In this document: one piece after another, positions 4,106-40,365 of the stretch
Layout: the number at the start of each line of letters is the position of its first letter
How positions within the stretch are numbered: the stretch's first letter is position 1
DNA from: Isoetes taiwanensis
Lineage: Eukaryota; Streptophyta; Lycopodiopsida; Isoetales; Isoetaceae
Length of the DNA: 64,000 nucleotides
Assembly (NCBI GenBank): GCA_021234155.1
Contig: JAJEKV010000025.1
Location: 2,751,339-2,815,338 of the forward strand
Reading direction: 5' to 3'
Notes under the pieces: generated by a model
What the model was told of the DNA's origin: nothing
Database searches by the model: none
The model's input: only the letters and a program-made list of their open reading frames with translations
Program-made: the position numbers and the translations under genes

Positions 4106-4176
4106 TATTCTATTCCATTCCATTCCATTCCATTCCATTCCATTCCATTCCATTCCATTCCATTCTATTCTATTCT
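4106..4176 (+). repeat. (ATTCC)n / (ATTCT)n microsatellite at LINE 3' end
   Basis: About a dozen consecutive ATTCC units, then ATTCT units, sit exactly at the 3' end of the LINE module. The copy B equivalent (8440-8470) is much shorter, so the array has changed length since duplication. Confidence 0.9.
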
Positions 4177-6424: not shown

Positions 6425-8475
6425 GGACGTGTTCAACTAATTTCAGTCTTGTTGAACGGGGCATTACAAGAAGGCTTCCCTCTGTAGTACCACTAGCAAA
6501 GTCGTTCCCTTCTACAAGACAGGTAACCCACACTGCCTAGCCAATTACTGAACAAACGTGGTTAGTTCGTTATTTGCAAATATTTGCAAAACTTCTAGCC
6601 AGCATTCTCGAGCAGTAGTTGATGAGATGGGCAGAGGCAGTAGAGGTACGAGCCTTCAAGCATCTTGGATTCAGACCCTGACACTCAACCATTGATCATA
6701 TCTTTACATTGCGGACTTTGGTTGAAGATAGCAGGAATTGTCAACAAGACCTATATTCTTGCTTCGTCGACTTCACCAAGGCTATTGATATCGTGCCTAA
6801 GGAAAAGCTATGGGTAAGATTGTGAGAGTTGGGGGTCCCAGTGGATCTGCAGAATGCAGTATAGAGGCTACGTGAGACATGCTCAGGCAAGCTGGAACCC
6901 ACAAACTAACCATACGATAGCAATATTGGGGTCCGCCAAGGATGCCCTCTCTCTTCAACATTATTTGGGCTTTATATTGATTAGTTGGAAAGCTGGCTTA
7001 CGGACAATGGAACCGGCAAAAATTAACTTTTACACCAGATCACCAGGCAGCTCATATATGCTGATGATGTGGAACTCCTAATGCATCGCCATCTGGATGC
7101 ACTGGACATATTCTGCCAGGCCACTGACATGTGCGTCAATCTGGCCCAGGCTAAGATATCATCCATGCATCAGCCCAGGCCTCCCTTATACCGAGGGAAA
7201 AATGTGGAGGTGACACACACCTACGAGCATTTGGGAGTGCAGTTTCCTTCTACCATGCACTGGGACACTTTCATGTGATTGCAAGTGACAGGGTGTGGGA
7301 AAGCACTATATACAATACAGAACAACAGTCCTAAAGCAGAACTGTATGATTGGACCCATCAGTCGCATTTATTTAGAGTCTTGATGGAGTGTGTTCTTCT
7401 ATATGGGGTCGAAGTCTGGGCCCTGTAGTGTCTCTTGCCATCTGGAATGACTTGGAGCAGGTGTAGAAAGCCTTCCTAGCTAGGGCACTAGGAGAGAAAT
7501 CCATGGTCCCATATCAAATGTTGTTGTATGATATTTTCTTGCCTCTTCAAAGAGCAGTTCTTGATCGCCACATCGTCTACTTTTAGAAGGTTGTCAGTAT
7601 GGACGATTCTCGTCTTCTCAACCTAGTTTACACCGTGGCAATGGGGCCGCAGCGCCTCAAGACCTGCTGGAAGGAAAACAGGGCTCAATGTTAGCCAGAT
7701 AGAATGTCCAGGAGCACAGGCGCATACATGTGCGAACAGATGAAGATCGCCATAGCTTAAGGCAGTACTTTGATGCTTGCTTCCTGAGCAAGCTTTGGAA
7801 TATCAACACCCTTGAACATGCCAAGACATCACATTACTAGCACCACATAAACCCCACGCTAGAACGGGGTTCGCAATGCTATTTGTGTATCCAATTTACC
7901 GTGAAAAAGCACAGACTCATCGTCTCAATTCACGCAGATGCACATCGCCTCAAAATTAAGACAGGCAGATGGATTGGGGAGACGCACCAAGACAGGCTTT
8001 GTCAATGCTACCAACTGAGAGCCGTTAAGGATGAATATCATACTCTTTATAGATGTGCGGCGTATGATCACATCCGGGCACGCTATGCTGAGTTGGTTAG
8101 GTCCAACAGCCGCTGCATGAGATATTAAGCTTGGCTTCAGTGCGGTTGCTGGGATCATTTCTTTAAGAAATGATTGATGGATATGCAGGCTCAGCTATAC
8201 CCTCGAATACTATCTTGATATATCCAACAATGTCTCTTGATGGATGTGTATTTGTATAGTCTATCAGCATTCTTATTACTCTCACGGTTTTTCCCTCGAA
8301 AATCCTTCAGGACGGGGGTTCTTTCTAATCCAGACAATATTATATCTATTGCACTTCTTCTTTGGGTCCCATAGACTGATTGCTCTCTGTGGATGATAAA
8401 AATCATTCAATTCTTCTAAAAATTCATCTTATCTTATCTATTCCATTCCATTCCATTCCATTCAATTCCATTTCG
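6425..8475 (+). pseudogene. 5'-truncated LINE reverse transcriptase, copy B
   Basis: RT motifs appear in order across shifted frames: VVPLYKTG.P near 6500, FRP.HSTIDHIFTLRTLVE near 6665-6725, the catalytic-block equivalent CFVDFTKA near 6755-6785, QGCPLS near 6935, and YADD near 7055-7065. The post-RT region runs 7390-7800, and a Cys/His cluster in one open frame lies at 7883-8126 (CQCYQLRAVKDEYHTLYRCA). The 3' module and ATTCC tail end near 8470. The family resembles the plant LINE types with FVDFTKAFD. Frameshifts show it is dead. It lacks the endonuclease and ORF1, as expected for 5' truncation. Confidence 0.85.
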
Positions 8476-10959: not shown

Positions 10960-11249
10960 GTTATCATAGGGTTTAGTTATCCGCGGGTTCATTTTGTATG
11001 TGGAAGCCTCGAAGGGGCATTATACATACTTGAGGTTCTAGATAAACGTCAGCAATTACTGAGCCCTCAGTAGTCATTATCTCCGCTTGTCTAGTATCAT
11101 CATTCTTGCCAAAGGTTTTCCCTTGAAAACCTTTCGGCGGGTTTTTAATCCTAGTAGTAATGATTGTACTAGCCCATTGTATGGGTCCCATGACCTATTG
11201 GTCTCCGTGGACGTTAAAAAAAACTATTCTATTCTATTCTATTTAATAC
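10960..11249 (+). mobile_element. LINE 3' end fragment with (CTATT)n tail
   Basis: The conserved 3' module is GGTTTTCCCTTGAAAACC (11117-11134), then GGGTTTTTAATCC, then GTCCCATGACCTATTGGTC and GTGGACGTTAAA, ending in CTATT repeats at 11226-11249. The nearest relative is the minus-strand copy at 42355-42490, which shares the ACTAGCCCATTGTATGGGTC stretch. No coding part remains. Upstream, 10708-10960 holds nothing recognisable. Confidence 0.7.
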
Positions 11250-28860: not shown

Positions 28861-31012
28861 ATTTTTTTTTTTTTTTTTTGAAGAATATAGGAATATATTA
28901 AACCACTAGAATGTGATCAAGTACAATGATAAGTGTGGTGCTAAGAAATGTAGTGCCCATCATGATTCACAATCTGTAGGAATGTCGACCAAATTTCCCG
29001 CTTAACTGTGCCAGAAAAGCTTGAGACTTGGTAAGCCTGCCACAACTTATGCCTCAAGATCGGAACCAACTGAAAAGGGCTAAGCACTGCATTCTGGAAG
29101 ACCTTCGCTCTCCGTCTTTTCCAAATCAACCACAGAAACCAAGCTCTGCATAAATGGAACGCCTTCTTTGCTTGGCCAGCGACCAAGCTGCTAGGAAAGA
29201 CTCCCATGAGAAGCTTCGATTTGCCGCAGTGAAGACCCAAAGAGGGCTCTCACCCGGGGACCAAGCTGCCCCTACCTCGTGCATAGGACAAAGCGGTGCT
29301 CAATGGTCTCTCGGGCCTCCCACATAGAGGGCATGTTTCCGCTACACGAGGCTTGAACACGTATACTCGGACATTCACCCCGAGGGCTACGGTGCAAGAT
29401 CTGCCATAAAAAAGTGCGGATTTTAGGAGGAGGCAATGTATTCCATGCCCACTTCCACATGGCGGGCCACTTACTCCCTGGAAGCTTAAGTGACCACTTA
29501 TCCAAAGGCGGCAATGTGTCCTGAAGCGCTAGAAGCCCATAAGCCCGATGCTACAAACCGAGATGCATCAAGTCCACTATCGACTTCCAAACGCGATTGA
29601 CTTGAGAAGACAACTGCAATGGAATAGCATTCGCAATTCTGGCCCAAGTCCGAATGTCCAGCAGAAGGCCAAATGGATCCCTAAAAACTCCCACGGCGCC
29701 CAGATGACCCTCCCAATACCAATCACGGATGGATGTTATCCCTGCAACAATCCATCGGCGCTGAGTACCTGGGTGTAGGGAAGAGGCCAAGGGAGATGCA
29801 GAATCCAAGGGTACCCAAAGAAAGGGCGATGAGGTGCTAGGGTCCAATGAAAAGAGAACCTTGACCACCTTCCGGGCCTTGAGGAGATCTTTAAGAAAAG
29901 GAAGCATGAGGGAATGGCCGCAAATCCTCAAACAGAGCCCCGGCAAGCGAGCGGAATTGCTGGCTTCCTAAACACAATAGAGTGGCAAAGCGGCGTGCCA
30001 ACAGAGCCAATCACGGGGATTGTTGCTCACCGCAACAACCGCTGCCGGATGAATTCGACACACGAGAACCTTTGTGTGCAAGGACACATCAAGCATACCT
30101 AAGCCCCCGCCTTTACGGGGCGCACACACACTTCCACCATCGACCTTCATGCAGCCCCCTCCTCATTTCCTCCCCAAACAAAATTGCGAATAGTGTCATC
30201 CAACTCCTTAACCACACTTTCTAGCATAGCAAGTATGGAGGGAGCTGCGTAAACATGAGTGCTCTGAGCAGCGACTTGGCTACCGAATCCCTACCAGCCA
30301 TGGTGAGTTTACTTCCCCTCCACCCGGTTTGAGATCTTTGCTTAAGATTACTCAGAATGTCTCGCCCAAATTGCCCTAGCATTAATGTCCAAGCCAAATG
30401 GTATGCCTAACGGTTTGGCGTTGTGATAATGGCGGTGTAAGAGCCCGGGGAAGCCCGACTCAACCACGCAAGAGGAGGTTCCTCCGGTACCCACATGGCG
30501 CAGCACTTCGACCGGTTAAGCAAGCACCACGAAGCTAAAGAAAAGGCATCAAAATATTCTTGGGCTGCTGGAGATTGGACTCATCTGCATGAAGAAAGAT
30601 GAATGTATCATCCACAAATTGATTGCAAAACTGTTGCGACCCATCATCCATCACGGAGACCTTGCACCACATTGTCGAAGAATCGCCACACGAAAAGTCT
30701 GCGAGAGCTTCTGCCACTATAGTGAGCGGGGAAGGGGCCAGCGGACATCCACGCCTAATGCCTCGACCCACGAAAAGATTGAAGAGGTCTCACCCCGACA
30801 CCACACCGTAAGCCCTAGCGGAACCGTGCGGCTTCATAACCGTTTCCACGAAACTAGGTCCACACCCAAAGGCACGCATCATATCGCCAAGAGCGCCCGC
30901 CTAACACTTGTCATAAGCCTTGGCAAAATCCAGCTTAAGAAAAACAAGGGGCTACCTCATCCTACGAGCCCAATGCACTCCCTCAAAAGCAGCAGCCACA
31001 TTATGAAGAATG

Positions 31013-31168
31013 CCACAGTTCTATTGCGATAGCAATAGAACCGACATTCCTTGGATGGGGACGTCCTACGTCGCATGTCCTATTTATACCGCCTCCTTCC
31101 TCTTTTCCAGTCATCGGCGTTCTCTTGAGCTCTTTTCCATTCTGCTCATTTCTGGCTCCACAAGTTTC
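31013..31168 (+). repeat. Left terminal block of unit A (repeated at 36630-36785)
   Basis: This block differs from 36630-36785 at only two positions that I can see. It opens with a perfect hairpin (stem GTTCTATTGC / GCAATAGAAC, loop GATA, 31018-31041), then CATTCCTTGGATGGG, then a TATA-like CTATTTATACC (31080-31090). The layout suggests a promoter. The right ends carry CCCATCCTAGGAATG, the near-inverse of CATTCCTTGGATGGG. Confidence 0.85.
31075..31092 (+). promoter_or_regulatory. Putative TATA box of the T-rich element
   Basis: CTATTTATACC lies about 65 bases from the unit start and is preserved in both units (the second near 36697). A pyrimidine-rich leader follows, as in plant promoters. 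This is inference from position and motif only. Confidence 0.4.
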
Positions 31169-34100
31169 CTACATTCAACGCTCTGCAAGTTTTCTATCTT
31201 CAAGGCTTTTCCCTACCAGTTTCGGCAAGCGGTTGGATTGTTCCGACTTGGATCCATTCTCTTGGACGCTTCGGTTTTACGATTTCGGGCTTGGATCCAT
31301 TCTCTTGGACGCTTCGGGTTTACGGTTTCGTGAAGAGTTGCGAGGTTGGCAGCTGCGATGGTGAGTTTTTCTTTTTGGTCCTTTGGCTCTGTCGGTATGC
31401 TTTCAATCAGGTTTTTCTGTTTGGACATCGGTTTGTTGAGGTTCATCTGCAAAACTCCGTTCTTGGCTTTATTTCGATTTTCTGGTTGGGGTTGAAAGGG
31501 GATGTCGGTCTCAAGCTTTCTGGTTCTTCCTGTTCTTTTTGGTTTTTTCTATCTCGTTTGTGGCTACTGGTTTGGTCTGGTTTTTCTATCTCGATTTGGC
31601 TTCTTTTTTTTTCACCTCTTCTTGCCGGGTTCATCTGGTTGGACGATGTTGAGCTTCCAGTGATCTGCCTCCTGGCTGCTTCCAGTGATCTGCCTCCTGG
31701 CTGCTTCACCTCTCTGCATATCGGCCCGCACCCCCTGGACCCCGTCAGCCCATGCGATCATGCAGGCCCCCTTTTTTCTTTGCTTATTCTGATCAACACG
31801 GACCCTTCCTGTTCTGCAAGAAGTCGATTCTCTCTCTATCATTTCAATTTCATGGTTTCCATAGCTTGCATCGTGCCTCCATAGCCAGATCCCTGTCGAT
31901 TTGGTGGTAGGTTGACCCTATTGCTTGTGGCTTCCCCATTCGAGTCTGACCGCGAAAATTTCCTGGCCCCATCTGTACCTGTTCTTCCCTGCCACCGCCT
32001 CGGCCTCCGCCTCTGTCATCGCAGGTGTTTAGTGGGGTTACCGGTAGTCAGGTCCCCTTGTCATCCCTTTGCTTGGGGTTACCAAGCCTCTGTTATCCCT
32101 CTTCTTTTTTTAGGAATAAACAACGTTGTTTTAATAGATCCTTTAGCTCTATCTTCTGCGTTTTTTCTTAGGGTTTGCTTTTATGTCACAGTTTTTGTTT
32201 TTACTCATAGGACGGCTTTTAGACTCATGTGGCACTTTGCTCTCAACCTCCTAGATCGTTTTCACTTTCCTATATATTGTCTAGCGAGTGCATTGGGCAT
32301 GTCTTTGGGACTAACTATGGTGGGATTTTCACCTGGATAGGCAAAGTCTTGTCCCACAGTTGTGATTTAGTGTTCTCTCTTATAGTCTGTATATTGTGAT
32401 ACAATTTGGGGCTTGGATCATTTCACGACCGTGTCTTGGGCGTTCCACATCAATTTCGACATTGTTATAATTTCGTTACATTGTTTTGTTTCTTTTGCAT
32501 CCATACTTAGACTTGTTCCCTTCTCATGGCTCCATTATGTACTTTTGAGGTTCATTTGCTCCAGTCTTGGATTTTTACTTGTTTGTTTGTTCTCCTGTTG
32601 AACATTGTTGTTTCATCGATTCACATCTTTTGGGTATGCTTCTTTACTTCTATCTTTTATATTACTTATCTAGACCTTTGGCGTCTTCCAGTTCCTCGGT
32701 TATCTAGCATGCCCCTTTGCGCTTTGTTGTCTTTATTGGAGGATTTGCTGGTTGTGGTTTCATGTGGTTGTTGATGTGGGGGCGGCTTCCATGATTTTTA
32801 TTCTTTTATGCAGCCGAAGTCCCCCTTTTTTATTGTTTATTTTAGATCAGCATGCGCAGTTCCATTGTCCATTGCTTAGTTTCGCTTTCTCAGTTGTACT
32901 GGCATTTTCGTTCTCGCATGCTTAACATGGGTATGATTTTTATACAGTTTGGACCTTATTATCATGTTTCTCAAACCCTTTTGTTTCATCGACGTTTAAA
33001 CAAGTCGTCTAGATTTTGGCGTTGTTTGGATTGTGTGGTGCATATGTTGCAGAGGGGTAACTCCTATGGTCTTTGTCTACGTTGTCTCGACAGGTCTAGT
33101 ACCTTAGATACATTCATATGAGATATGGTATGTACATGTGCAAATGACCTCTAGGACTATTGTATTAGGTGGATCTATCCTGCTACACGCAAGGTTCATT
33201 CGTTCATTATGGTATATATGCTTGACAGTAACTTTAATATCTTTTGATTAGTCGGTTCCCCTTAGTTGCTGGTGTCGGGTGCCCTGCCTGGCTTCATGGT
33301 TGGGGTTCTGGTATCGTGTCCTTTATTTTGATGCAGCGTAGTGACAAAGGTGATTCCTTCTAGGCGTGGTTGCTAGATTTTGTATTCCATAATCTTCATC
33401 AGGTTATCTCTCAAGCTTTCGTATGTTTGTTGGTTTGTCGACTCATTCAGGTAACAATGAATATGTATGTGGCTTCGTTCTTCGCGTTGTTCTATTTTTG
33501 TTTTTAGACGTTTGATCTTCTCTACACACACTCTTGTCTCATTTCTATGCACTCTTGTTAGTTTTAATGGTCTGACTTTGGTTGGCGTGATTTTCGAAAA
33601 CCTTGATTTCATTCAGTCTTATGTGTTGGTTGGCTTGATCGTTGCTATCTGTAGTTCCTTATCAAGTTGGGGGCTATGTGTGTGTCGCTTATCCTATTAT
33701 CTCTAGTTTGTTTTTTGCTCCATTGGCCCATCCAAAGTCTTGATTCATTCCCTTACCAAAATTATGCGTTGCTCTATTTTGCCGTCAGGTTCCTACGTTT
33801 GTCCCTTTTGTCTGCTTATGGTCTGACTGCTAATAGTTCTATTTTGTTTCGTTCGTCCGTTTGGCTGTTGTTGATTCTTCTCTGTCGTTTTTTGTCGCTT
33901 GATGTTCACATTAAATTTTTTCATCTTGGGCTTTTTATAGTTTCATGGGTACGGTTTCTTTTGGTCGTTGACATTCTACATAGTACGCTTGATGCAGGTT
34001 TGGTCATATACTTCTAGCATAGTGTTTATATCATATGGTTTATGTCTCACCTTAGGCTTTTTACATGGTTCCTTTTCAGGCTTATTTGGTTTCATTTACT

Positions 34101-35906
34101 ATACTCTTCTTTCTTCATATATGTTTGCGCATTAGATCCATTCTTAGTATTGTCTTCTTTTATGTTTGCACCTTCTGGCTCAGAGCGTTGGGATCATTGT
34201 GCGTTGCGTCGTTTCCAAGCTCCAGGTTGTTTGATGTTGCCATATTTCATTCTCTAGACCGCATAATTAGCGCCCAATGTTCGCATTACATTGCCTCATC
34301 CTGGGTTGTGTATTTTCATTTATACAGTTTATTTTGGTCTCCGACATTCTACACAGTATGTTTGTTGCATATTTTCATCATATACATTTGGAGATAGTGT
34401 TGTCTTACATGGTTTATGGCTTGCCTTAGGCTTTTTCCGTGGTTTCTTTTCTTACCTTTTCGGTTCCTTTTGATGCATCTTCTTCATATATGTATGGGTA
34501 TTGGATCCATTCTTTATGTTGGCTTCGTTTATTGCTGCTTTGTTTGCATTTGAACGCTTGGACGCACTTCTGAGATTTTTTGGTGTTCTTGGACATTGTC
34601 GATTCCATACATATTTATGCCCACTTTATGTTGACTGTAGCTTTATTGAGCAATTTTTGTGATATCAATTGATCTCTAATCTCGGTTGTAATTTTTTGCT
34701 CCTTTGGTTTGATTACTCCTTTCTGACGGTTCCTTACTTAGTCTTGTCTTCATGACCTTGTGCTATTAAAATCGGTCATCTTGGTCCATTCCTATTACGC
34801 CATTTGTCCCATTGGCTTTAGTTCTTATTTGGCTCTATAATTTCCTTCTCACTTCTTGTTTCTACTCTCTTATTCCTGTTATTCTGTCTCCCTCATATAT
34901 TTTGTTTTGTTTATTGTTTCCTTTATAAGTATTTTCTGTGTTTCCTTTGCCAGTTAGTTTTAGATTCTCTTTTAGTGCTTTTAGTTAATTCTTTGTTTGG
35001 TCTCTTTCTCTTATGATCCGTTTAGCTCTTTCTTGTGTCGTGTTTCTATTTACCCCTTTTGCTCCGTTTATTCTATTTTTAGTTTTGTCTCCTTCGGTTA
35101 TTTTACCCTCTTGACTCACCTGGGTTCACTTCTCTATTTCTATTGCTCCAGTCCCTTATTTGTCCTTCCTTTTTTACTTTTATTTTGAATCGTCTTTTTC
35201 TTCTGCTTCTTATTTGTCATGTCTGACCCTTGTAGTCATTTCATGGGATCCTTTATCATTAGCCGATCATGTTCGTTTGATGGTTCCATTTGCCCCTTTT
35301 TTATGGATATGTGGCCTCAGTGTTTTATATAACATAGGATCCTTTGTCATTAGCCGATCATGTTCGATGGTTTCACATGGTCCCCTTTTGGATCGTTCCG
35401 TCTCATGGTGTTTATAGGACTGTTTTCATTCGTTATTATTTTTATGCATGTGGTTTGATTTACATATCTGCGCATTTCTTTCGGATAGTTGGTCCATTTC
35501 AGGTTTTTATGTCGATGAATTTGCTTTGTTGCTCGATGTTCAGTTATCAGTTTCAATTCCGCATTCTTGGGTTTTAGTTCACCATTTTTGGGCATCTTCT
35601 GGGCTTCACTGGTTTTGTTAATTTGTGGTCTATTTGGGTGTTGATGAGTTTATGATTTTCGTTGCTCTTACATTCATTGTGTACACTTGGCCATCTCTGC
35701 ACTCTTGTTCGTTTCATTTGGATGGTTTTTTGTTTTACGATGAAGCTAAGATTCCATCAATTTTCTGATCTTGTGCATTCCTTTATTAGTATGCTCTCAC
35801 CTGTGTTGCAGATTCGTATTGCTCAACGTCTATTGTGGTCTATGCTATGGTTATTTTGTCCCTTACGTGTTTGCCCTTTCTTCGTGTTGTTTTTCGCTTA
35901 TAGTTT

Positions 35907-36571
35907 AGTTTGACTGCCCAGTTTGACTGCCCCTTTGTCCTCTAGGTACTTCATTGCCTTGTTAATGTTGGTCTTTTTCGTTACCGGCCTTGGCCTTGGC
36001 TCTCTGGTTCTCTCCTTTCGATTTGCCCTCTTGGTGTCCATATATCAGGTTTCTGCCTTTTGCTCTGATTATCCCTGTTACTCCGGCAGCCTTGATTCAC
36101 AGTTTGTTGTTATCCCCCAAGGGCTTGATCTGTTCTAATTGTCTTTTGCCCATGTCTCCCTTAGCTTCGCTTTTTGCCTGATTTTTTCCTTGTCGTCCTA
36201 GTTTGCTCCATGTTTTTTGAGTTTGGTTTGACTGCCCGGTTTGACTGCCCCTTTGTCCTCTAGGTACTTCATTGCCTTGTTAATGTTGGTCTTTTTCGTT
36301 ACCGGCCTTGGCCTTGGATCTCTGGTTCTCTCCTTTCGATTTGCCTTGCTTCTTTTTGCCCTCTTGGTGTCCATATATCAGGTTTCTGCCTTTTGCTCTG
36401 TTTATCCCTGTTACTCCGGCAGCCTTGATTCACAGTTTGTTGTTATCCCCCAGGGGCTTGATCTGTTCTAATTGTCTTGATCTGTTCTAATTGTCTTTTG
36501 CCCATTTCTCCCTTAGCTTCGCTTTTTGCCTGATTTTTTTCTTGTCGATTTAGTTTGCTCCATGTTTTTTG
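35907..36571 (+). repeat. Tandem duplication of about 318 bp inside unit A
   Basis: The sequence from TTTGACTGCCCCTTTGTCC (35922) repeats at 36240 almost unchanged through TTTGCTCCATGTTTTTTGAG. The second copy has short extra stretches (for example GCTTCTTTTTGCCC near 36348). High identity points to a recent event. Confidence 0.9.
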
Positions 36572-36901
36572 AGGTTGATTCCTCCTCTATCGGCCAACTA
36601 GTTGTTACATAGGACCCATCCTAGGAATGCCACGGTTCTATTGCGATAGCAATAGAACCGACATTCCTTGGATGGGGACGTTCTACGTCGCATGTCCTAT
36701 TTATACCGCCTCCTTCCTCTTTTCCAGTCATCGGCGTTCTCTTGAGCTCTTTTCCATTCTGCTCATTTCTGGCTCCACAAGTTTCCCGCCCTCCTCTCCC
36801 TCTGTCATATCTGAGCTTGTTAGTCATTTTCACTTTCCCTTTTTCTCATATTACGTTCTATTGTTAAAGTTGCTCGCGGATATGCTCTTATTTTTCATTT
36901 T

Positions 36902-37175
36902 TCTCGGCGTGGCACTGTAGCCTCCGAGGCTTACTTATCAGTTCTTTCTTTCTCGGCGTGGTTGTAGCCTCCGAGCCATACTTTCTTGTTCATTTTCTCG
37001 GCGTGGCACTGTAGCCTCCGAGGCTTTCTTCTTTTTCATTTCTCTCTCGGCGTGGCAATGTAGCCTCCGAGGCAGCACTAATCGGATGTTTTTTCCCGCG
37101 ATGGTCATTCCGCGGATGGTTCCCGATTGGTCGGCTGTTGTTTCTTCCTCGGCGTGGCCCTGGAGCCTCCGAGTG
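36902..37175 (+). repeat. Array of five short hairpin motifs
   Basis: Five copies (starting near 36903, 36951, 36997, 37046 and 37147) share CTCGG, GTGG, then GCCTCCGAG. CTCGG pairs with CCGAG and GGC with GCC. Between GGC and GCC the hexamer is ACTGTA, ACTGTA, AATGTA or CCTGGA in four copies, while copy 2 is shorter, so changes fall in the predicted loop. Spacing is irregular (about 46-100 bases) with T-rich spacers. Confidence 0.8.
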
Positions 37176-37364
37176 CTATTATATTCTTTTTATATCATTT
37201 CAGTTTGGCACGAGCCCTAGCTTAAGGCTCCGAACTTTCTAACGGGTCATTCTCATTTCCAGACTTTCCATTGCAGGTCCTTTTTTACAGTTCTCTCGAT
37301 GGTCAGCGTCATCCTGTTTGCAGCAGCTCACTTCTTGGCTGACGTATGCTAGCGGCATTCAACG

Positions 37365-37452
37365 AGAGCGGTGGCGACCGTTTCTCATTAGGGTTTTCCT
37401 CGAAAACCCGAAAGGGCGGGGTTTTTCATCCCGATGAGGAGCGGTCGCCAGC
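37365..37452 (+). other. Long stem-loop with LINE-tail-like centre
   Basis: GGCGACCG (37371-37378) pairs with CGGTCGCC (37442-37449), with further pairing TCTCAT / ATGAGGA inside. The centre holds GGTTTTCCTCGAAAACC then GGGCGGGGTTTTTCATCC. This resembles the 3' module of the LINE family at 3953 and 57745, which may mean shared ancestry of 3' ends. Confidence 0.6.
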
Positions 37453-40365
37453 TTTCTCACATACCAAGTGGCGGAACAATCATCTTCTTATTTGGCACTC
37501 TTCAGTTTTCATCATGCTCTCGATCAATTGTCTAGTTTCGGAGCATGTTCAGTTTTCAAGTTTTTAAAATTTTTCTACCCCTTAGTAGGGGGATCAGTAT
37601 GTACTCAAAGATTTTACAAAGCTCAATGAGAACACCACTTCACTTCGGCCAACTAGTTGTTACATAGGACCCATCCTAGGAATGTTCCGTTGTGGTATAA
37701 AATGCTCTGCACTAATGGCGTGAACTAGTACTGGCTTAAGCCTCTCAGCCAAAGCCTTAGCAATGATTTTATACACTACAGACAACAGAGTAATAGGCCT
37801 CCAGTCATTGATGGTTTTAGGATGCTTACACTTGGGTATAAGTGAAATACAGCCTGTATTCAGCAGAGGATGCATCGAGTTATTCCCCAAAAGATCCACA
37901 TACACCTGCACCACCGAGTCCCCCACTTCTGAAAAAACTCCACTGGTATTCCATCTAATCCAGGACACTTATTCCGAGCCAACAGGCGGCATGCATCCCC
38001 CAACTCCTGCCCTGTCAACGGCTCCTCTAAGCTCTGTCTTTGAAGGGCTGAGATTCTTGGCGATACCTTGGCCAGCACCAGCTCTTGAAAAACACTCTGT
38101 GAGGGAAGCGGGCTCTCCTTGAAAAATGTTTCGTAGTGCGCTGCTACAAAGGCCTTGATAGCATCTGGTTGCTGCAACAACACTCCCTGGGGTGTAACTA
38201 TGTCCGCCATGGCTGCTGCATACTTCTTCTGGCGGGCTGCTCGGAAAAAGACTTTAGAGCAAGTGTCAGACTGCTTCAGCCACGTCAAACCTGCTTTGAC
38301 CCTGGCCTGCGACACCTTGGCCTCCTCCTCAACCTCGATCTGACGAAGCACCTGCTGCTCACGCAAGCCATCAGAGACCCGCCCTATAAGAGACTCCAGT
38401 TCCGTATATAAGGCATCCAACCTGCGACACTGAGCCAAAGCCTTTTGCTGCCCCCATTCTTTCGTAAACTATTTTACCCTAGCCAATGCTGTAACCATTG
38501 CACTCATTCCGCTATCCTGGCTGAATATCTGCTGCCAAATGAGCTTACAGCCGTCCTGAAGAAAGCTTGTGTTAAGCTTAAAAACCGTCCTGAGAGGTCG
38601 CGGTGGGTGGTCATGAAGCCGCTGAATGATCTGGGGAGTGTGATCGAGACGAGGTGGCGTAACATTCACCCTAGTGAAGGCTGGAGCATAATCCAAGACT
38701 GCTGGAGTGCCATAAACTCTATCCAGCCTAGAGTATGCCCTACCATGCCCCAGCCAATTATTGCACCAAGTAAAATTCCGATCCCCGGGAAGCTCTGTCA
38801 AACCCCACTCCTGCACAAATCTAAGCCATTGGTCACGCTCAAAACCCTGCACAATATCTCGAACCAATACCATGCACGTCCTCTCCGGGAGCTCCACCAT
38901 GTTAAAGTCACCCAGGACAAACCATGTAGAACCCATACCAAAGGATTGGAGCTTATTTCGCAATTGTGCCCATAAGCAACCTCTCTGAGTGGCCCCAATT
39001 GGTGCATACACATTCAGTAAGCCCCACTCGGACTGGCCCTCCTTCCATTTAATCACGCCTAATGGCCTTGGCTATCGTGGCTGAAAAGGTTACATGTACA
39101 CCCATTTTCCAACAAATCAAAGTACCTCCCTCGGCCCCGCAGTTGTACTACTAATGCGTCTTGATTACCCAAGATATTCATTAGGTTGGTAATATCACCC
39201 CCGGCACATTTATGCTCCGCAACACACAAGATATCCGGATTAAGATTCTTCATGACCATGGCGAGGCGTGCTCGCTTATTAGGAGAGGATTTGATGCCTC
39301 TCACATTCCAAGATAGAATTTTCTTATCCATGTGGGTCGTTGTGCACCAAGGGTCCGGGATCCCCTTGTAAAGCCTCACATGCCTCAACACTATCAGCCG
39401 AGAAGAAAAGTTACGGACTACGATCAATCACCATTCGATCCACTTGAGGAGGGACCATGCGATTGGGGGCTGGAGATGGGCTAAGTGACCCTCTTGAGGA
39501 ACTCTCACTGAGCTCGCCTCCTAGAAACAACTTGTTGCCACCCTTCCTTTTTTCTCGCCGCAACTCTTCAACATTGTGCAAGTCTCCCTGCACCTGGGAT
39601 CCACCATACGCAGAGGAGGGTTCGGGTTGTGTCTCTCGGACTGCCCACCGCTCCACGACCTTCAACACGGGGGAACAAGTGCAGAGGGTGAAGGCGGGCC
39701 AATCACTATTTGCTCGGGCACCTGCTTGGGTGTTGAGTGAGGTTTATGCTGGTGAAACTGCTTAAGCGAGGGAAACATTGCCAAAAGCTCCCCCATTGAG
39801 CAAGTCCAACTGGAAGTAAGAATAAAAATCACCACTTTTAACTACAAGACTCGAGGTACCATCTCATCCGCCCCGAATACCTACACATATCTATGGTGCA
39901 CCCACAATCGAAAAGGCGCGCTATGTGAGTTCCGTGCCTTTGGCCATGGCCACTAGAAACTCGGGCACCATCATCTCCGGAGGCGGATCCCGGATTTGAA
40001 GCCAACATGGCACTCTAACCTGCAGCGAGGCCTAGCGTAAGAGAGAAACACGGAGCATAATTTGGAACAAAACATAGGCCCCTCCCATACGTGCCACTCC
40101 ATGCGAGACCAATCGCTTCCACCGTGGCCTCGAGAATCAACCATAATAAGAAAAAATTATTACCCGAGACTTGGGGTCACATATGGAGGCAACTTGACCT
40201 CTTAAACCGAGCCCGTAGCCGGTACCCAAGCCTCTGCATATCCAAAAAGGCCCCAGTGAAATGGCCTAACACCGAAGATGCAACCAAATTCTCTGTATAC
40301 TGCACATGCTTCTGGTGATTGATTTCTACAACAGGAGGTAATGATTTAAAAACTTGCCATTATTG

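Follow-up and report, generated by a model that had tools for sequence, protein, structure and literature searches.

What is the insertion that interrupts a long interspersed nuclear element (LINE) in this stretch of Isoetes taiwanensis DNA (64,000 nucleotides of contig JAJEKV010000025.1, called the window below)? It consists of two units, A and B, with the word GAATG before, between and after them, and the question is whether they came together or apart. The insertion is very probably a single non-autonomous tyrosine recombinase (YR) retrotransposon of the DIRS order, with split direct repeats of the PAT/Ngaro type. This reading is carried by the repeat layout, a junction between the units that is fixed across the genome, an AAT core at both ends, the empty site in the LINE, and autonomous relatives that have the same junction after their YR gene.

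The three GAATG words lie at 31008, 36625 and 37680 of the window, as the initial annotation placed them. The word itself is common (210 occurrences in the window against about 188 expected), and its placement is the informative part. Short tandem runs of the pentamer CATTC, which is GAATG on the minus strand, occur at 4116-4165 and 8444-8463. The left blocks of the two units (31008-31169 and 36625-36786, 162 nt including GAATG) are 99% identical and the right blocks (36590-36629 and 37645-37684, 40 nt including GAATG) are 100% identical, in line with the shared blocks of about 156 and 34 bases first described. What the two units have in common is limited to ~158 bp on the left and 36 bp on the right, and about 1 kb lies between the start of the second left repeat (A2) and the last right repeat (B2). 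The repeat layout is A1-internal-B1A2-B2, that is, split direct repeats of the PAT/Ngaro/VIPER type. The insertion does have exact boundaries inside the LINE; the limits first given, 31013-37679, are corrected to 31012-37680 for the element proper, which is flanked by AAT at 31009-31011 and 37681-37683.

When the flanks are joined over one AAT, a minus-strand LINE reverse transcriptase (RT) frame is open across the join, and the LINE has a stop codon 19 codons beyond it. In the genome, which was searched over 1,658,258,908 bases in 1,110 contigs, all 40 candidates scored match the joined LINE sequence across the join, and 6/6 aligned paralogous LINE copies are continuous at the insertion point. 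The earlier claim that removing the insertion restores the RT frame is thereby upheld. The LINE copy of the window lacks 6 bp about 20 bp away from the insertion, with the insertion point itself untouched.

The ends were compared in 16 elements with both ends available: nine full non-autonomous elements (including that of the window), two autonomous elements and five solo B units, with loci designated by L numbers. Loci L004, L006 and L013, each with one outer end missing, were omitted; L004 and L013 have AAT at the left end. AAT is found at 16/16 left ends and 15/16 right ends, the exception being AAA in the solo B unit L025. The motif used for 7 of the 16 left ends itself contained AAT; a re-test with a motif free of it found AAT at 17/17 left ends outside the window. 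The neighbours of AAT vary, with T in 9, G in 4, C in 2 and A in 1 before it, and G in 7, A in 7 and T in 2 after it. GAATG stands at only 4/16 targets (window, L001, L009+L010 and L024). Because the outer ends have only AAT in common, GAATG is no 5-bp duplication; judged from these ends, the outer GAATG of the window is a five-letter match of the junction core with the target. The initial annotation had considered an integrase-like 5-bp cut, which should have left five-base duplications in the copies. AAT alone is kept, and this is what tyrosine recombination at a short core would be expected to leave.

A partner enzyme, which was not in view at first, is present in autonomous relatives. A PF00589 profile search of the genome gave at least 58 matches, and the best 29 of them, apart from C1094, were examined. 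The same junction lies directly after the YR gene in 14 of these 28 loci (4/8 + 10/20), and in the five read at length (L022, L023, L024, L072 and L073, referred to here as family 1) it begins 40-43 bp past the end of the YR open reading frame (ORF). The full A1...B1A2...B2 layout, with A1 upstream, is present in L023 and L024, whereas a search for A1 in L022, L072 and L073 found none. L023 and L024 also encode an RT. The ORFs of L024 match RVT_1 (2.6e-16), RVT_3 (3.9e-4, below its cut-off) and Phage_integrase (6.8e-10), and those of L023 match RVT_1 (8.5e-16) and Phage_integrase (4.1e-9). The ends of the window element are ~73-93% identical to those of the five loci over 57-244 nt, and copies of the CTCGGCGTGG...CCTCCGAG units of its unit B recur among them: the 3' units of L022 and L024 hold one each and that of L023 two. 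From the shared ends we infer that the window element uses the RT and YR of such relatives.

These partners bear directly on the possibility of a Crypton-like DNA element, in which a circle is excised and reinserted by a tyrosine recombinase with no RNA step. The recombination core and the solo units described below require a YR only and would suit such an element, but autonomous Cryptons have a YR without RT, whereas RVT_1 stands beside the YR in L023 and L024. The similarity of A1 and A2 within loci also argues against it. The two are 93.5-100% identical within one locus (ungapped columns), and the closest A2, alone or tied, is the element's own in 9 of the 13 elements compared (L006 was left out; exceptions L001, L002, L005 and L011+L012), as expected if A1 and A2 are remade in one replication. 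The RNA structure with paired changes in unit B counts against it as well. We consider a Crypton-like origin improbable.

According to the initial annotation, two related elements, A and then B, might have inserted independently into the same GAATG site. This would account for GAATG before, between and after the units, and L045 shows that an array may contain more than one B unit. The genome copies make it highly improbable. The left-block search gave a first-look count of 1,833 candidates, of which 40 were scored, and 11 loci besides the window were read, chosen where the matches suggested a unit A with its right end, or a unit B. In 11/11 the joint CCTAG-GAATG-CC is present with unit B directly after unit A, while the outer flanks (10 left and 8 right captured) differ among the loci and keep only AAT. 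Common boundaries were thus recovered, with ends GCC...CCTAGG where the outer ends were captured. The core pattern of the junction has 392 exact matches in the genome, and its backwards control has none. Because the A/B junction is fixed while the flanks differ, two insertions into one site are rejected, and on this comparison the two-unit insertion is one element. The similarity of A1 and A2 within loci also counts against separate insertions, as do 20 further B-unit matches (of 40), of which 13 are preceded by the junction, five are solo with an AAT flank and two are unresolved.

The same loci reveal how the units are combined. In the L045 array, a preceding unit is represented by its right end; then come a B unit, a unit A-like at its ends and a second B unit, with the same junction at each joint. 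The B units measure ~1.07 and 1.21 kb. Of the 392 junctions, the first 100 include six neighbouring same-strand pairs that lie within 10 kb of each other, against ~0.24 expected. Multi-unit arrays such as L045 indicate that sequential use of the junction probably occurs in the window family, and the solo B units and the array show that units appear to behave as cassettes which are gained and lost. Two of the B-unit loci, L028 and L044, lie on different contigs with the same right flank, which suggests a duplicated segment; because of this common flank they are not independent.

A defective long terminal repeat (LTR) retrotransposon, LARD or TRIM-like and with unusual ends, is hardly tenable: the element is long and apparently non-coding, has terminal direct repeats and TATA-like boxes, and some LTR elements such as TARE1 have non-TG ends (PMC3701649; this and the other papers cited for background are used within the extent of their available excerpts), but the two full-length near-identical LTRs and the 4-6 bp target duplication of that class are replaced here by split repeats with only the ~158 bp and 36 bp in common and by no duplication beyond AAT, and the partners encode a YR, so that the ends are indeed not those of LTR elements, as first noted.

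In unit A the content of A is 15.3% and that of T 43.6%; the remainder of the window has 29.8% A, and the lowest A content outside unit A is at least 26.5% (5.6-kb stretches in 500-bp steps on both strands of the window). The plus strand is therefore as strikingly poor in A as was first remarked, and low A is common to two autonomous copies (14.4% and 18.5%). The longest ORFs of unit A reach 197 aa. When the RT, YR and Gag-like ORF of L024 were compared with the window by tblastn, the window element gave no match (E<=1; its own ORFs were not compared with family libraries), and four non-autonomous elements searched with the L024 proteins gave a single match, of 20 aa and E 0.047, in L013. In a rough alignment of unit A with L003 (64% identical), 83/117 gaps are not multiples of three and mismatches fall evenly over the codon phases. 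Like the initial annotation, we read the window element as non-autonomous. Two copies of 12-13 kb were considered as autonomous and rejected: the large ORFs of L009+L010 belong, by eye, to a LINE in the opposite orientation, and none of the three L024 queries (RT, YR, Gag-like ORF) matches L011+L012 by tblastn. L009+L010 (C985, ~18813647-18828330) looks by eye like a window-type element into which a LINE with long open frames was inserted in the opposite orientation.

In the mechanism we propose, RNA would start in A1 and be copied by the reverse transcriptase of a relative. The B1A2 region would permit the rebuilding of incomplete ends. A circle would then close at a B2/A1 junction identical to the internal one, and this B/A junction, CCTAGGAATGCC, would place unit B beside unit A. 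The relative's YR would bind the inverted arms and recombine the AAT of the circle with a genomic AAT. Since the junction lies inside each element and would be rebuilt at its ends, units could be lost, giving solo B units, or added, giving arrays.

Several observations weigh against this reading. In 4/13 elements the closest A2 belongs to another locus. In the partner, the matches to a Dam-like methyltransferase (PF05869, E 0.025) and to a Gag zinc finger (zf-CCHC_5, E 0.2) are below the Pfam cut-offs, with a CCHC motif visible by eye in an L024 ORF. Since no match was obtained between the window element and any partner protein tested, we can infer the use of a partner only from the shared ends. 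Furthermore, a model of the structured RNA in unit B gave no match up to E 1 in the family-1 autonomous loci L022, L023, L024, L072 and L073, and the RT partner may thus be another family.

Split direct repeats are the layout of PAT-, Ngaro- and VIPER-like elements (PMC6681497, PMC4157794). Like the PAT-like elements Pat1, TOC and Kangaroo, the family has repeats in the order A1...B1 A2 B2 and a partner with Gag-like, RT and YR genes in this order. Unlike them, the window element encodes no partner protein, its ~1 kb from the start of A2 to B2 carries hairpin-like repeats and a structured RNA, its host is a lycophyte, and the methyltransferase and zinc finger are weakly supported in the partner. 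In agreement with such a host, exons of the LEAFY family match at 4 places in the genome and at none in the 14 prokaryotic controls. TOC1 of Chlamydomonas is likewise long, has split repeats and codes for little, and the window element is like it in these respects. In the echinoderm form of Pat1, as read from PMC4157794, the internal repeats also follow the YR, and PAT-like elements are present in green algae (PMC8226300). Ngaro-like elements likewise have split direct repeats, with the internal ones downstream of the YR (PMC4157794, PMC6681497); they are without a methyltransferase region, for which the partner here has the weak Dam-like match. The layout and this weak match do not appear to separate PAT-like from Ngaro-like elements. 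As here, the 3-bp junction of DIRS1 recombines with an identical genomic sequence and leaves no target duplication (PMC3266345), but the terminal repeats of DIRS1 are inverted and not direct and split.

Published accounts of YR retrotransposons in land plants disagree. In the available parts of these sources, a 2022 review states that DIRS elements are found only in green algae and hence omits them (PMC9033089), while a 2019 review has DIRS-type elements occurring in plants (PMC6696364). DIRS is named in general terms among plant transposable elements (PMC11630846), 361 DIRS fragments are entered in the repeat table of a fern (PMC6890710), and a 2026 paper gives DIRS as 8.26% of the Chinese fir genome (PMC13415678), the excerpts of the last two giving neither structure nor domains. 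'DIRS' appears nowhere in the main text of the I. taiwanensis genome paper (PMC8566536), and in the open literature, with subscription papers and Repbase outside the search, we found no lycophyte in which YR retrotransposons had been described. The layout, the core, the empty site and the RT- and YR-encoding partners are now documented at the sequence level, together with the 392 exact junctions. The kind of element is a known one; what seems new is the non-coding two-unit form, its arrays and a shared RNA, in this host. The fixed junction and the arrays supply many natural cases of a YR junction at work, which makes the integration site and the circle model testable.

Table 1. Features of the insertion and of the interrupted LINE (positions in the window).
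Feature	Position	Strand	Basis
Downstream part of the interrupted LINE reverse transcriptase	30535..31011	-	joined frame; ORF list
AAT, left end (shared core, presumed recombination site)	31009..31011	+	AAT at left ends; empty site in LINE paralogues
Whole element, probable non-autonomous YR-type retrotransposon	31012..37680 (6,669 bp)	+	ends GCC...CCTAGG where outer ends captured; empty site
A1, left split direct repeat	31012..31169	+	direct repeat D1, 99%
Palindrome within A1	31018-31041	+	sequence reading
TATA-like CTATTTATA within A1	31080-31088	+	by eye
Interior of unit A, rich in T, poor in A and apparently non-coding	31170..36589	+	tblastn; gap and codon-phase pattern; composition
B1, internal copy of right split repeat	36590..36625	+	direct repeat D12, 100%
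B1/A2 junction, presumed YR recombination site	36612..36679	+	sequence; 392 exact genome copies of core pattern
Inverted arms of the junction, GGACCCATCCTAGGAAT and ATTCCTTGGATGGGGAC, with a 34-bp spacer holding a palindrome between them	36612-36628 and 36663-36679	+	
AAT core of the internal junction	36626..36628	+	GAATG in 11/11 further junctions
A2, internal copy of left split repeat	36629..36786	+	direct repeat D1, 99%
TATA-like within A2	36697-36705	+	by eye
Five hairpin-like units CTCGGCGTGG...CCTCCGAG in unit B	36903..37173	+	repeat comparison
Strongly structured RNA domain, long stem and two apical hairpins	37358..37463	+	folding z; paired stem changes
B2, right split repeat	37645..37680	+	direct repeat D12
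AAT core, right end	37681..37683	+	AAT at 15/16 right ends
Upstream part of the interrupted LINE reverse transcriptase	37684..38438	-	joined frame; ORF list

The RNA of unit B is predicted to fold, over ~105 nt at 37358-37463, into a long stem with two apical hairpins. The folding of 37340-37470 has a z of -5.1, with 0/200 shuffles as low, and the hairpin array at 36890-37180 as a whole folds no better than shuffles (z -0.87, 38/200 as low). A scan of 31000-37700 against Rfam gave no match up to E 1, and hammerhead-like letters, weighed by eye, were not retained. When 33 copies were first aligned for structure, subfamilies were mixed together, and the result was nine predicted pairs and no useful consensus. 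After removal by eye of the 16 rows whose 5' stem did not align, a choice that favours the structure, 94.1% of cells in the remaining 17 rows are paired, and 14 cells in 8 pairs have changed on both sides, compared with 4.2 cells and 3.0 pairs in shuffles, none of 500 reaching either count. With 36 rows, which include pattern-selected places (in 19 of them helix 2 is set by the pattern itself), 61 cells have changed on both sides against 23.7 in shuffles, and the covariation score is 0.171 against 0.105, each exceeding all 500 shuffles. The number of pairs changed on both sides in these rows is not above shuffles (9 vs 7.2; 84/500 reach 9), and a shift of the partner by -1 yields as many pairs (9), with 43 cells. 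All these paired-change counts are inflated by kinship among the copies.

The structure extends beyond the window family. A second YR family (L015, L019 and L021) has different ends, CCTTTCCCAGAAT/CCC, and a junction with the geometry of family 1 in other letters; for the pattern of this junction the genome holds 68 exact copies, and none for the control. L017 has a YR similar to that of family 2, but without the family-2 junction and without the structured RNA. In a comparison with four such loci of ~3.5 kb each, the only match of the window element is an 81-nt piece in the structured RNA, 93-94% identical and present in three of the four (L015, L019 and L021). The 27-nt apical core occurs at 983 exact places in the genome, with none for the control, and 19 of 20 places fetched hold it, in several sequence contexts (one was mis-typed). 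The RNA domain occurs at L015, L019, L021, L065, L074-L089 and L091-L093. The sequences searched with the RNA model include rows from which it was built; among window-type copies the model matches weakly in L007, L008 and L010 (E 0.11-0.42) and not at all in L012 and L045; by this measure the structured RNA is diverged in these five.

To our knowledge, how YR retrotransposons select or prime their template is an open question, and the shared structured RNA is a concrete candidate for either role. We put forward, as a speculation that is more likely wrong than right, that the window family parasitises two YR families at once and that the shared RNA is a cis-acting template signal for the RT of YR retrotransposons. 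The family-1 recombinase would integrate the window family, because its ends match family 1. If so, the basal stem of a cis-acting template-signal RNA would have been rebuilt by paired changes. Evidence against a simple role of this kind comes from L065, where the RNA core lies antisense to the YR gene, and from L082, where the basal stem does not form. Elsewhere in the window, the RNA model has a weak match on the plus strand at 11081-11181 (21.8 bits, E 0.0015).

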